Shown piece after piece: positions 4,161 through 17,958 of a stretch of 22,545 bases of DNA. The stretch is from IMG/VR virus record IMGVR_UViG_3300031841_002686, positions 1 through 22,545 of that record. The stretch is one strand, 5' to 3'. Positions within the stretch are counted from its first letter, which is position 1, and each line of letters starts with the position of its first letter. This DNA is from a virus. Under the pieces are notes generated by a model. That model searched no databases. It had not been told where the DNA came from and worked only from the letters and a program-made list of their open reading frames with translations. The translations under genes and the position numbers were made by a program.

Positions 4161-5324
4161 ATGCAGGACGAATGGGCAGACTACTGTGACGCAGTAGGTA
4201 GCAAACCCACGTTTGTAATCAAAGAAGAACTAATCAACGAAGCCTTTCCCGGAAACCCATACTATACGAAACAAAACGGATCATCTCTCTCTCGCTTGCG
4301 AGGCGTTGCAGTCAATGGCCGCATAGAAGAGCTTGAGATGCGCCTAGCAAAAGAAAAAGACGTTATCCCGGGGATGATTACTACCGGCACTGTAACGCTC
4401 GTATACGCGCCCTCAGGAGCTGGTAAGACGGTGTGGATTTTGGGCAACCTATTCCAGAGTATTCGGAATAACCTGATAAAAGGCTCGGATGTGATCTATT
4501 TTAACGAAGATGACGGAGCCAAGGGCGTACTCCAGAAGGCCAAGATGGGCCACAAGCACGGCATGACCATGATTACCCTGGCTAACTCTCCAGATCCTTC
4601 GCTACGCACAACGACTGACGCGCTCCATTTGCTGAATGCTATCCGCGAGGAGGGCGAAGCGGACGGCAAGATCGTTATCTGCGACACCCTCAAGAAGTTT
4701 GCTCCTGTCCTTAACAAAGGAGATATGCGAGAAGTTCTCCACGTCTTCCGTGAGTTCGCCGCTGCTGGCGGCACAGTCATCCTGCTGGGCCACTGCAACA
4801 AGCATCGGAGCATGGACGGGCGATTGATCTATGAGGGCGTAGGCGACCTCAAGGCAGATGTAGACAACATGTTTGGCCTTGATCCTGTCAACGACAAGTT
4901 TGCCTTCTATCAAGAGCTGTTAGTAATCAATGAGAAGGATCGTAGCCAGATCAGCTTCGAGGGCGGGTTTAAGTATAAGCAGACCAGTGCGACAGTGGGG
5001 TATGAAGAGTCAGTAGATTCTGTGCAGTTCATGACAGTCGACGACATCACAGAGCTTAAAGAGAAACAACGAGCGCAGATCAATATAGGTAAAGCCATCA
5101 GCAAATACGAAGACGAGTACGTGCTTCTAAGTAGCGTTATGAAAAGCAACAAGATGTTTAGCCAGTCTGATCTTCTTCAGTTTTTACATGATGACGAAAT
5201 CAATCCCAATGGATGCACCAGAAAGAAGCTACTTAACTGTATTGATTTGCTCAAAGGAAACAACCTAAAGCTAGAAAGGCGCGGCGAACACGGCAAGAAA
5301 TTCTACCGTTGGGTGCCAATGTAA
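4161..5324 (+). CDS. RecA-fold ATPase, RepA/DnaB-like replicative helicase candidate, 387 aa
   Basis: Walker A is APSGAGKT (residues 83-90), Walker B is IVICD (171-175), and VILLGHCNKH (206-215) matches the motif H/sensor strand of the RepA-like AAA_25 family of hexameric helicases. Residues 112-122 (IYFNEDDGA) match the EDxxxxxxxR strand that follows Walker A in this family. The C-terminal 60 residues look like a winged helix (SQSDLLQFL, TRKKLLNCIDLL), suited to DNA or partner binding. It probably unwinds or remodels DNA at the phage origin. ATG 4161 follows AAGGGG (4149-4154); the frame starts earlier at 4095 but without a ribosome site. It heads a plus-strand operon with nin-type recombination genes. 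No primase domain is visible. Confidence 0.8.
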   Translation: MQDEWADYCDAVGSKPTFVIKEELINEAFPGNPYYTKQNGSSLSRLRGVAVNGRIEELEMRLAKEKDVIPGMITTGTVTLVYAPSGAGKTVWILGNLFQSIRNNLIKGSDVIYFNEDDGAKGVLQKAKMGHKHGMTMITLANSPDPSLRTTTDALHLLNAIREEGEADGKIVICDTLKKFAPVLNKGDMREVLHVFREFAAAGGTVILLGHCNKHRSMDGRLIYEGVGDLKADVDNMFGLDPVNDKFAFYQELLVINEKDRSQISFEGGFKYKQTSATVGYEESVDSVQFMTVDDITELKEKQRAQINIGKAISKYEDEYVLLSSVMKSNKMFSQSDLLQFLHDDEINPNGCTRKKLLNCIDLLKGNNLKLERRGEHGKKFYRWVPM

Positions 5325-5334
5325 GGAGAGTGTT

Positions 5335-5757
5335 ATGAACGAATTAATAGTGGCGTTAGACACGCTATTTCAGGATCTTGATTCTGCCGAAGGCGAACTG
5401 AGAAGTGCGGCATACCGTAAGCCAGATCATCCCTTCACCCAAAGATTAGAGTCGATAAATAGCACTCTCTTGTACCTTAAAGACCTTACATCTGGATTGC
5501 TTGAGCAACTAGAGCATGATGGTGAGCGAGTTTACTGTGTTCACGCATCAACAGAGATTTCATCTCACGTCAGAGTGTTTGCCAAAAACGAAGCCGACGC
5601 CATTAACTTTGCCTGTAACACATTAGAATCCCGTATATCCAATATGGCAGGAAAGAAGTTTGATTGGTACAGCAATACTATAGGCGAGTCAGTGGTTGAC
5701 TATGGGCATGGCAAGGATAAAAAAGTGTTAAACGTGCCATATCCTGAAGATAAATAG
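5335..5757 (+). CDS. hypothetical protein, 140 aa
   Basis: ATG 5335 has AAGGAG overlapping the previous stop. The N-terminal half is helical (MNELIVALDTLFQDLDSAEG, LESINSTLLYLKDL), and the second half (VYCVHASTEISSHVRVFAKN, EADAINFACNTLESRI) looks like a beta-alpha module. No family is recognised. Its TAG stop (5755-5757) merges with the first unit of the repeat array that follows. Confidence 0.7.
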   Translation: MNELIVALDTLFQDLDSAEGELRSAAYRKPDHPFTQRLESINSTLLYLKDLTSGLLEQLEHDGERVYCVHASTEISSHVRVFAKNEADAINFACNTLESRISNMAGKKFDWYSNTIGESVVDYGHGKDKKVLNVPYPEDK

Positions 5758-5800
5758 AATCCCCAGAATACCCAGAATCCCCAGAATACCTCTAATCCCC
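5756..5800. repeat. left array of five 9-bp repeats (AGAATCCCC type)
   Basis: Units are AGAATCCCC, AGAATACCC, AGAATCCCC, AGAATACCT and CTAATCCCC, contiguous from 5756. The reverse complement of the unit, GGGGATTCT, matches the right-array unit at seven of nine bases, so the two arrays are opposed. Possible iterons of an origin, or one arm of a leader hairpin. It lies in the 135-bp non-coding gap between the 140-aa gene and the ninB-like gene. Confidence 0.8.
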
Positions 5801-5854
5801 TTCTGTAGGGGGCGGGGTAGCCTAGACATAGTGGGGGGTAAATAAGGGTATTAG

Positions 5855-5890
5855 GGGGAAACTGGGGAAACTGGGGAAACTGGGGAAACT
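5855..5890. repeat. right array of four exact GGGGAAACT repeats
   Basis: Four perfect tandem copies occur at 5855, 5864, 5873 and 5882, ending 2 bp before ATG 5893. On the plus strand and in the mRNA this is four G4 runs separated by 5-nt AAACT loops, a canonical G-quadruplex pattern. The last GGGGA is also the only plausible ribosome binding site of the next gene. The 54 bp between the arrays are G-rich (runs at 5808, 5814, 5833) with an AT-rich stretch at 5839-5853. Confidence 0.85.
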
Positions 5891-5892
5891 GA

Positions 5893-6312
5893 ATGGACAC
5901 ATCACACCGCTGGCTTGTTGACACCAAAGACAAGATGAACTTCTTCATCGCTTTCGTTACTACGCAGTTTGATGACGGCAAGAAGATACTGTATGCAATC
6001 AAGGATACTACGCGCAGTGACAGGCAGAATAACGCCATGCACCTGTGGTTCCGGCAGATAGCGCAGGAGTTAAACGACGCAGGATACTGGGTACGACATC
6101 CCTTTAGTGACAAGCTGGAGATACCGTTTACGGAGGTATTGGTTAAAGAAACACTCTACAAGCCCATCATTAAGTCCATGTACAACAAAAGCTCCACAGC
6201 TAAGGTAGCCCCCAAGGAACTCTCAGAAGCCGCTGAGGTGCTAATTAGGTGGCTCTCAGAGCATAAGGGTGTATATGTGCCCTTCCCTCAACAACTAAAG
6301 GATCAGTTGTGA
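5893..6312 (+). CDS. ninB: NinB-like recombination protein, 139 aa
   Basis: Residues 39-56 (TTRSDRQNNAMHLWFRQI) match the signature of lambda NinB (Orf), where an RSxxQN...LW helix recurs. NinB binds ssDNA and SSB and mediates strand exchange or annealing in the lambda Red/RecF context. The length is near that of lambda NinB (146 aa). An in-frame TGA lies directly before ATG 5893 (TGAATG), fixing the upstream limit; an internal ATG at 5935 lacks a ribosome site. The gene starts straight after the GGGGAAACT array, so its translation may be sensitive to how that array folds. It ends in a GTGA overlap with the next gene. The family call rests on short motifs. Confidence 0.7.
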   Translation: MDTSHRWLVDTKDKMNFFIAFVTTQFDDGKKILYAIKDTTRSDRQNNAMHLWFRQIAQELNDAGYWVRHPFSDKLEIPFTEVLVKETLYKPIIKSMYNKSSTAKVAPKELSEAAEVLIRWLSEHKGVYVPFPQQLKDQL

Positions 6313-7201: not shown

Positions 7202-9810
7202 TCGTCCGTTAGGAGTCGCTCGCCAGTGGTCATGCGAAGAATCCTATCTATGTTAGCAACCCCTGGAGCATAAGTTTGCGCCGTACGCAGCAGTGGCTCC
7301 ATCACATCCTCTTCTCCAGAGATTAGCCTTTCTCCCGCTGTTAGCATGCCAGATCCTGTCCTGCTGATAGCCGTCAACGGAGCGGGGCTAATGCTTACTG
7401 TTTGGCCTCCAAATTCCTTCGCCCTTAGATTGACTGCGCCGCTACTTATGTTGGATGCAATCTGATTCATGGTCGCAGATGTGATGCCTTCGGGGGTAAG
7501 GACGTCTTCTATTTCCTTGTTCTTGCTAAGATCAAGAGTTTTTCGAGCGTCATCCCAGACGCCGGCAAGTACGCCAAAGAGCGCCACATACTTTCCCGTT
7601 TGAATCATCGCAGTCTTTGCGGCATCGGCACCTTCTTTGGTGTTGATACCCTTTTCGGCAACAGTGGCTAGGTTCAGGCCAACTTCAGTTCGGATGTTGT
7701 TCATCTGTCGGTTCATATACGACAGCATGCTATACATCATTCGAGCGTTTGGATTGTCGTTGTAGGCGCGAGGCATTGTACTTGCGCTAACAGGCTGCCA
7801 CTTATTCATGGCCGCACCAGCAAAGTTCAGCACGTACCCAAGCTCATTCTTGTTTAGCGATCCGCCCTGCTTCATCTTCTGTAGTGCGCTGACTGTGCTA
7901 TCAAATTCAGACTGAGACAGCCCTTTCATTCCGTCGTGCTTCTTCAGCTTTTCAATAGATTTCTCGTCGCCCTTCCTTGCAAGGTTTACAGCCCGCTGAA
8001 CCGCCGAGTTAGACAGCATCTCTTGGCCCATCCTGTTAACCTTTTCAACGCCCGACACCCGGTATAGAGCCTTACCCAGAACGTCTACGCCACGGCCAGC
8101 AAGCTCTGGCGCCTTGATGTAGTTAAACACTTCAGCGGTCTTTGTGGTTTCTCTGCCGATAGTGTTAGCGACTTCCCCATAGAAGTTTTTGTCAAGGCCG
8201 AGATCTTTGTTTGAAACCCACTTCTCTGGATTTACGCCGGTAATCTTTGAGATGGTGGGGAAGGTTTCAATAATCCCGCGTGGAACTGTCTGCGCCCAAG
8301 CCTTGATGCCATTCTGAAAAACAGGAGCAGTCACGCCCTCAATTATGTTTAACACAGCGTTCATGGGGTTAGCCAGTAACGCAGTAGATACTGCCCTTCT
8401 TGATACAGCGCCCACCGCATCGCCGCCCATCTTGGAGGTAATTAGTGTGGATCTAAGCGCGTCTTGCAGGTTGCTGCGAATAGCCTTTTCGTTTGCCGCG
8501 CCCTTTAGCTCTTTCTTGGCGGCCTTATCGATGGCCTTGAACACGGAGTCCACTCGACTCCTAGACTGCAACTTTTCTTCTTTTAGGTTGATGTTGTCTA
8601 TATCAATATTAAAACGCTTTGCAACCGCCCTAGCCGTAGCAACATCCTTGGCGTACTGCTTTAGGGCTTCTACTGGATTTGCGTAATCGTTAGACCCCAT
8701 AACTTTGTTTTTATTTACAGCGATTGTGGGCATGTAGTCCCCTTCTGGAAACTTAACGAAGTCCAGATCCTTGAGGACTTTTACTTGATCCCTCATTAGC
8801 TCAACCGCCTTCTTTTCATCGGGTGTCTGCGCCATGCGAATAGCGTCATCCCAAGAGGTTGCCTTATCTCCAAACTTGTTATTAATTCTTAGAAGCGCTG
8901 TTTTTAAGCGAGGGTTATCCTCGAATACTTTTGCCGCTCCAGAAAAGACATCATCATAAATCGCATCGATCTCACTTAGCTCGTGGCGAACCATAATCTC
9001 AGAGTCTTCAACTAGTCGAGCAGCTCTTGCGCCTACATTCTTTTCAGTCCATTCTTTTGTGCCAAGCAGTATGTTTCCAATAGTTCTAGACGCCTTGCTC
9101 ATATTGTCTTTGAAGCCATCACCGACAAGTATGGTTGTATTTTTTCTTTCTTGCAGGCTGGCATCGGTAACAGATCCGCCTTTCCCTGCGCGACCTACAT
9201 TGGCAAATCCTTCTTCGCCGCCAATAAACCCGCCCTCCTTTCCTACGCGCTGTCGCTTTGCCTGCTTTGCTGCAGCAGCTATTTCGTCGGCGTTTCGCGT
9301 AAGGGTTGAGGCAGCAGCGCCAAGCCCCCCGCCAAGGGCTGCGCCCATTGCAGCGCCTTCTAGCCGACCCTCATCTCTCCCGCTTAGATACCCGTAGGCA
9401 GCGCCCTCTGCGGCACCAAGGGTAGCCACCTTGAAAGCCCTATCTAACTTACTTCCTGTCTGAGCTATCTTTACTAACCCGGCTCCAGGTATAAATAAGC
9501 CGGCACCAAGACCAACCGCCGTGATTAGCCCGGATGCGTTGGGATTGGCTTTCTCAAAAGCATCTAGCTCTGCACGAGACTGCTGTATGCCTTGACTATA
9601 ATTGTTGGCTTCACCTGACAAAACACGGATGGTAGCGTCAAGCTCATCGCCTACGCCTATGGCGGACTCAAGAAAGTCCACAGCGCCAGATCGAACAGCG
9701 CTATATTCTTGCACTGGAGTAAAGCTATAGCCTGTTTCCCAAGGTTTTTTCTTTGAGGCAAATGATGGCTGTTTTTTAAATCCAGGAGGTGATTCCCAAG
9801 GTTTTGGCAT
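7198..9810 (-). CDS. large internal virion/DNA-ejection protein candidate, 870 aa
   Basis: It is the last gene of the late minus-strand operon. The N-terminus carries two KPWE motifs (residues 3-6 and 22-25), a feature of the N-termini of large internal virion proteins in many marine podoviruses. It then has hydrophobic Gly/Ala segments at about 93-113 and 131-168 (GAAYGYLSGRDEGRLEGAAM) that could insert in the host membrane. The remainder is long, helical and charged. No lysozyme motif is visible. By position after the nozzle, repeat and coiled-coil proteins it is likely an ejectosome component comparable in role to T7 gp16. This is inferred from context, not from a recognised domain. AGGAA lies within the preceding gene end. 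Confidence 0.6.
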   Translation of the reverse strand: MPKPWESPPGFKKQPSFASKKKPWETGYSFTPVQEYSAVRSGAVDFLESAIGVGDELDATIRVLSGEANNYSQGIQQSRAELDAFEKANPNASGLITAVGLGAGLFIPGAGLVKIAQTGSKLDRAFKVATLGAAEGAAYGYLSGRDEGRLEGAAMGAALGGGLGAAASTLTRNADEIAAAAKQAKRQRVGKEGGFIGGEEGFANVGRAGKGGSVTDASLQERKNTTILVGDGFKDNMSKASRTIGNILLGTKEWTEKNVGARAARLVEDSEIMVRHELSEIDAIYDDVFSGAAKVFEDNPRLKTALLRINNKFGDKATSWDDAIRMAQTPDEKKAVELMRDQVKVLKDLDFVKFPEGDYMPTIAVNKNKVMGSNDYANPVEALKQYAKDVATARAVAKRFNIDIDNINLKEEKLQSRSRVDSVFKAIDKAAKKELKGAANEKAIRSNLQDALRSTLITSKMGGDAVGAVSRRAVSTALLANPMNAVLNIIEGVTAPVFQNGIKAWAQTVPRGIIETFPTISKITGVNPEKWVSNKDLGLDKNFYGEVANTIGRETTKTAEVFNYIKAPELAGRGVDVLGKALYRVSGVEKVNRMGQEMLSNSAVQRAVNLARKGDEKSIEKLKKHDGMKGLSQSEFDSTVSALQKMKQGGSLNKNELGYVLNFAGAAMNKWQPVSASTMPRAYNDNPNARMMYSMLSYMNRQMNNIRTEVGLNLATVAEKGINTKEGADAAKTAMIQTGKYVALFGVLAGVWDDARKTLDLSKNKEIEDVLTPEGITSATMNQIASNISSGAVNLRAKEFGGQTVSISPAPLTAISRTGSGMLTAGERLISGEEDVMEPLLRTAQTYAPGVANIDRILRMTTGERLLTDD

Positions 9811-15565: not shown

Positions 15566-17958
<2,393 letters not shown>

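Follow-up and report, generated by a model that had tools for sequence, protein, structure and literature searches.

Opposed 9-bp iteron arrays 3' of an AAA_25 helicase gene are a candidate replication origin in a group of uncultivated phages

Two opposed arrays of 9-bp iterons, which lie around a G+C-rich core and would be bound by the C-terminal winged helix of the AAA_25 (RepA-like) helicase encoded immediately upstream, are most likely the replication origin of the phage whose DNA is considered here, judging from comparison with its relatives. The window, by which the whole analysed stretch of 22,545 nucleotides is meant (positions 1 to 22,545 of IMG/VR record IMGVR_UViG_3300031841_002686), holds one such element. 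Comparative sequence shows the iteron layout, a universal link to the helicase, concerted change of the left and right repeats, and a repeat type that co-varies both with the winged helix and with that of a distant half-site. Because the repeats and the DNA-binding domain of the helicase change together in dozens of phages, all uncultivated and mostly marine, the element is a candidate for the site at which this helicase starts. In the proposed mechanism the winged helix would bind the iterons, helicase subunits would assemble on both arrays in opposite orientations as two opposed hexamers, the core between them may open or extrude as a hairpin, and two helicases would start, one in each direction, so giving bidirectional replication. 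The helicase has many relatives in IMG/VR (67-100% identity) and no cultured ones, none of 50,697 phage records or 72,556 plasmids matches it, and among 84,980 genomes only one MAG fragment, titled Gammaproteobacteria, does so; hence the replication of this phage group was hitherto undescribed. What is offered now is a concrete candidate origin, its proposed initiator and a putative specificity code in which a few residues stand against one base pair.

The features concerned are collected in Table 1. A preliminary description, made from the letters of the window, had reported five units of AGAATCCCC type and four of exact GGGGAAACT with a core of 54 bp between them, and these are real, being read directly in the sequence, the two arrays also being called by Tandem Repeats Finder at period 9 (scores 56 and 74, the left array also at period 18 with a score of 70). 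GGGGATTCT, the reverse complement of AGAATCCCC, matches GGGGAAACT at seven of nine bases, and the exact 18-mer of the element is absent from the rest of the window. Downstream of the helicase the gene order is an optional 140-aa ORF, the element, ninB and a NinG-like gene; the ORF is found in the window and some relatives and most relatives are without it. Its stop codon overlaps or reuses the first repeat unit, as if the ORF had been inserted exactly at the array edge. Counted against an origin is that the core has no clear A+T-rich unwinding element. GC skew, put forward in the preliminary description as a check, tracks gene direction and gives no origin signal. Elsewhere in the window (15700-17000) a long PEPEPEPE-coding repeat tract sits in a 797-aa structural protein on the minus strand.

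Table 1. Positions of the element, its neighbouring genes and the distant half-elements
Feature	Sequence	Position	Strand	Remarks
AAA_25 (RepA-like) helicase gene	window	4161..5324	+	387 aa; PF13481, E 2.2e-10; proposed initiator
Predicted C-terminal winged-helix domain of helicase	window	5085..5321	+	AlphaFold2 mean pLDDT 88.7; H-H-E-H-H-E-E
Codon tracking repeat type	window	5154-5156	+	M
Codon tracking repeat type	window	5175-5177	+	L
Codon tracking repeat type	window	5226-5228	+	K
Codon tracking repeat type	window	5232-5234	+	L; recognition helix, L vs R
Codon tracking repeat type	window	5286-5288	+	E; wing, E vs A/T
Optional ORF between helicase and array	window	5335..5757	+	140 aa; no family
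Left iteron array, five 9-bp units	window	5756..5800	+	C-rich on +; layout conserved; AGAATCCCC AGAATACCC AGAATCCCC AGAATACCT CTAATCCCC
Core, 54 nt	window	5801..5854	.	two G runs, TGTAGGGGGCGGGG and GTGGGGGGTAAA
Right iteron array	window	5855..5890	+	GGGGAAACT x4, exact; opposed to left array
ninB (Orf-type recombination mediator)	window	5893..6312	+	phrog_72, E 2.6e-10; PF05772; neighbour only
Half-element	G001	~12.27 kb
Half-element	G005	~30.3 kb
Half-element	G010	~10.98 kb
Half-element	L239	5777-5794
Half-element	L185	13714-13731
Half-element	L202, L226, L218, L228

Opposed 9-bp arrays stand 3' of the AAA_25 helicase gene in all 98 distinct helicase loci of the IMG/VR relatives (2-6 units per side as scored), and because of this recurrence the two-array layout is far beyond chance. 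A search for similar arrays in related phages had been proposed in the preliminary description, and it turns out that they are present throughout, with the opposed orientation kept and with a position set by the helicase. In 85 of the 98 loci no more than 30 nt separate the helicase stop codon from the beginning of the left array, which often overlaps it, and in the remainder an ORF lies between the two. The gene beyond the element varies (ninB, a cytosine-methyltransferase-like gene, others), and where ninB is absent or displaced the element is still beside the helicase; since the next gene varies and the helicase link is constant, the element belongs to the helicase and not to ninB. Between lineages the 9-mer changes on the left and right together, the left/right pairs being AGAATCCCC/GGGGAAACT, AGAATGCCC/GGGCAAACT, AGTTTGCCC/GGGCATTCT, CGTTGGCCC/GGGCCAACC and others, and although as many as six of the nine unit positions can differ from one lineage to another, left-right complementarity stays at about 7-9 of 9 in the best register. 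The iteron consensus is close to NGWWTSCCC. The core is symmetric (GGGGGC..GCCCCC) in many other relatives and inverted in one sister clade (12 loci, reverse score 31-46 vs forward 8-18), where it is C-rich on the plus strand. Two related genomes have an extra right-type array some 170-200 bp past the main one (L135 ~5463-5494, L146 ~2596-2627). In IMGVR_UViG_3300046167_000364 (58241 bp; L027/L034) two differing copies of the ninB/helicase region are about 36 kb apart on one contig, which may reflect an assembly join between two phages or else a concatemer made of variants.

Details of how the repeats would be recognised come from the C-terminal domain of the helicase. The full-length model is poor (pLDDT 57) and its fold search unhelpful, and so only the C-terminal domain was used; its predicted winged helix resembles PadR/LmrR/PerR/Fur proteins by Foldseek (probability up to 1.0, with E only 0.005-0.06, weak E-values being common with domains of 79 residues). 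In the clade holding both repeat types (16 CCCC-type vs 33 GCCC-type helicases) four columns of the 417-residue protein separate the types perfectly, all in the C-terminal ~77 residues, among them a recognition-helix column and a wing column, and the 12 most discriminating columns all map to the winged-helix domain. The winged-helix tree needs one change of repeat type, the ATPase tree 7-8 and the NinB tree 10; with the five type-tracking columns removed, the winged-helix tree needs three, vs eight on the ATPase tree for the same row set. Independent contrasts, four of four on supported branches and seven on the best tree, all go in the same direction, the four supported switches (two for the distant site) being too few for a significant sign test. 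Recombination can move the winged-helix domain and the adjacent array together, by co-transfer or co-inheritance. Linkage as the sole cause of the co-variation was tested with NinB, which flanks the element just as closely on the opposite side and does not track repeat type (best column at most 0.59); co-transfer of domain and array may nevertheless have contributed. The predicted fold and the perfect co-variation with repeat type suggest that the C-terminal winged helix recognises the repeats.

A second site lies at a distance. In one subclade the complete-looking relatives have, some 8 kb away from the main element, a half-element made of an array and core without a right array. It stands in the intergenic region between divergent genes, ahead of the terminase/portal block, and is missing in many genomes and in other clades; the window ends before reaching that region. 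The half-element is of the same type as the main element of its own genome in 13 of 13 distinct cases (4 CCCC, 9 GCCC). L238 and L240, two sister genomes, have nearly the same sequence flanking the half-site, while half-site units, main units and winged helix have all switched between them. The same type at unlinked sites points to a single trans-acting DNA-binding protein which, on these sequences, would read both the main element and the half-site. Somewhat more tentatively, the helicase may be a self-sufficient initiator, an AAA_25 (RecA-fold) motor with a fused winged helix loading as two opposed rings. Its specificity domain and the iterons would then be exchanged as one module, recognition having changed between CCCC and GCCC several times among closely related phages, with the distant half-site re-tuned in step.

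The divergent setting of the half-element, between the terminase/structural block and the early genes, would also suit a set of operators, with the helicase or a free winged-helix product repressing or roadblocking transcription both at the half-site and beyond the helicase gene, and the main element does sit within a co-directional gene run. That the arrays are such control sites (autoregulation, local transcription control) and not an origin seems unlikely, because the double array is universal and the half-site is absent from many genomes, and because a pair of opposed arrays immediately 3' of the gene is how a SaPI-type origin is laid out, an operator being expected 5'. An origin and a control function may nevertheless coexist: the element may be regulatory as well, the half-site being missing from many genomes, and the half-site itself suggests an extra regulatory role in some of them. 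Upstream of the terminase block a separate string, CCCTATCCTATAT, occurs in 26 of 50 records searched, exactly once in each with one mismatch allowed (for example G001:12218-12230). It is mostly followed by a conserved TTTTTTGTATCTGGGTGGGAACTA and reads on the other strand as TATAGGATAGGG, perhaps a phage promoter.

Whether the element acts as DNA or as RNA had been left undecided in the preliminary description, which besides an iteron-type origin beside a RepA-like helicase proposed a bistable leader of ninB, with the right array pairing to the left or folding alone as a G-quadruplex. An RNA reading, in which the helicase-ninB mRNA would form a long hairpin that serves as leader switch, attenuator or processing site and the right array would form a G-quadruplex, does find some encouragement: the 137-nt stretch folds as RNA at -64.7 kcal/mol (z -5.08; equally stable shuffles 0/200), left/right complementarity is maintained through the unit changes, and some lineages carry GGGGGC..GCCCCCTTTTT within the core. 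Nonetheless it is very improbable. The opposite strand folds equally well (z -5.10), cores are inverted in the sister clade, and when the two halves are aligned without preference for either wobble, the mismatches count 145 of G.T type vs 146 of A.C type, so that the asymmetry looked for in one-strand pairing (G.U for A.C) is lacking. Most left-right mismatches exchange A with T or G with C and thereby preserve the type of base pair, and each unit has conserved unpaired positions, with one or two mismatches per unit retained. A structured leader would also hold a fixed place before the gene it regulates; instead the element follows the helicase, ninB is not always next, and repeat type goes with both a DNA-binding domain and a DNA site that is unlinked. 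The claim that the last GGGGA is the only ribosome site of ninB holds for the window and its close kin, and most lineages outside these have a separate GGAG-type site after the array. Rfam has no match to the element. An intrinsic terminator was likewise rejected, since the G+C-rich hairpin has no T run after the window element; some lineages have a T run inside the core. Given the helicase link, the concerted change, the 145 vs 146 count, the equal folding of the strands (z -5.1 each) and both core orientations, the evidence points to an element that acts as double-stranded DNA, such symmetry not being expected of a one-strand RNA. The origin half of the earlier proposal is thus well supported, as the arrays follow the helicase in every relative and their sequence tracks its winged helix, and the bistable leader and G-quadruplex are best set aside.

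Among known systems RSF1010 shares the helicase class, as AAA_25 has the RecA/KaiC-like fold of RSF1010 RepA, a hexameric helicase with repeats near it at oriV. The RSF1010 iterons are bound by a separate protein, RepC, in contrast to the phage helicase with its own predicted DNA-binding domain. Closest in layout are the Staphylococcus pathogenicity islands, and the related SCCmec Cch2: the C-terminal domain of SaPI Rep binds short repeats that lie immediately past the gene encoding Rep, and a two-hexamer loading has been proposed (PMC7581432), which compares with the short repeats directly 3' of the helicase gene in 98 of 98 loci here. Membership of the SaPI Rep/Cch/Cch2 family was rejected, as Pfam finds AAA_25 only and the PDB holds no sequence relative of the helicase. 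The best-supported model, by analogy, is that the phage element would work like a SaPI-type origin; its helicase, being of another class (AAA_25 and not SaPI Rep/D5-type), places it outside that family, and its repeats are 9 bp, G+C-rich and in two opposed arrays in a tailed phage.

A different analogy is the archaeal plasmid pRN1, where a 100-nt stem-loop origin lies 3' of orf904 with structure kept and sequence variable (PMC4234260). By that analogy the phage origin would be a cruciform or hairpin DNA recognised by shape, a mode proposed for pRN1, and not linear 9-bp iterons. The inverted-repeat element is directly 3' of a winged-helix replication protein in both, with a stem-loop that is conserved while its sequence changes, and in the L153-like clade the forms are nearly perfect inverted repeats. 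Recognition by shape is still very improbable here, given that the periodic units track specificity residues of the winged helix, that each unit retains one or two mismatches, and that the half-site has a single array and core without a second arm. Moreover pRN1 is without 9-bp iterons, and in the phages the sequence changes of the element follow the winged helix. Membership of the pRN type fails on the prim-pol and SF3 helicase of pRN1, only an AAA_25 helicase being found here.

The iteron origin preferred here provides a general search rule, namely to look immediately 3' of AAA_25 helicase genes for short repeats in opposed orientation, and at least one unrelated phage group has already been found in this way. 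A pattern scan of IMG/VR for GGGSAAACTGGGSAAACT gave matches beside the window-type helicase and, in two phage groups unrelated to it, immediately 3' of a helicase gene, other matches being coding-sequence repeats or unrelated. In the first group (L181, L187, L207, L229, L241) CCCCAGTTT / CCCCAGTT repeats are directly 3' of an AAA_25 helicase gene, as in L187 at ~9400-9640, although that helicase is only distantly related (734 aa in L187) and the repeats, 8-9 bp long and of mixed orientation, are accompanied by a TATATATA stretch. In the second, L175 (8000-8090) and its copies, CCCCAGTTT-type repeats lie directly 3' of a Toprim/DnaB-type primase-helicase gene. Both layouts are apparently convergent. 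The distant AAA_25 phages RHph_X2_26, Mae-Yong1326-1, P26218 and 1.123.O have no such 9-bp arrays 3' of the helicase; in Mae-Yong1326-1 and P26218 that position holds repeat-rich inverted repeats.
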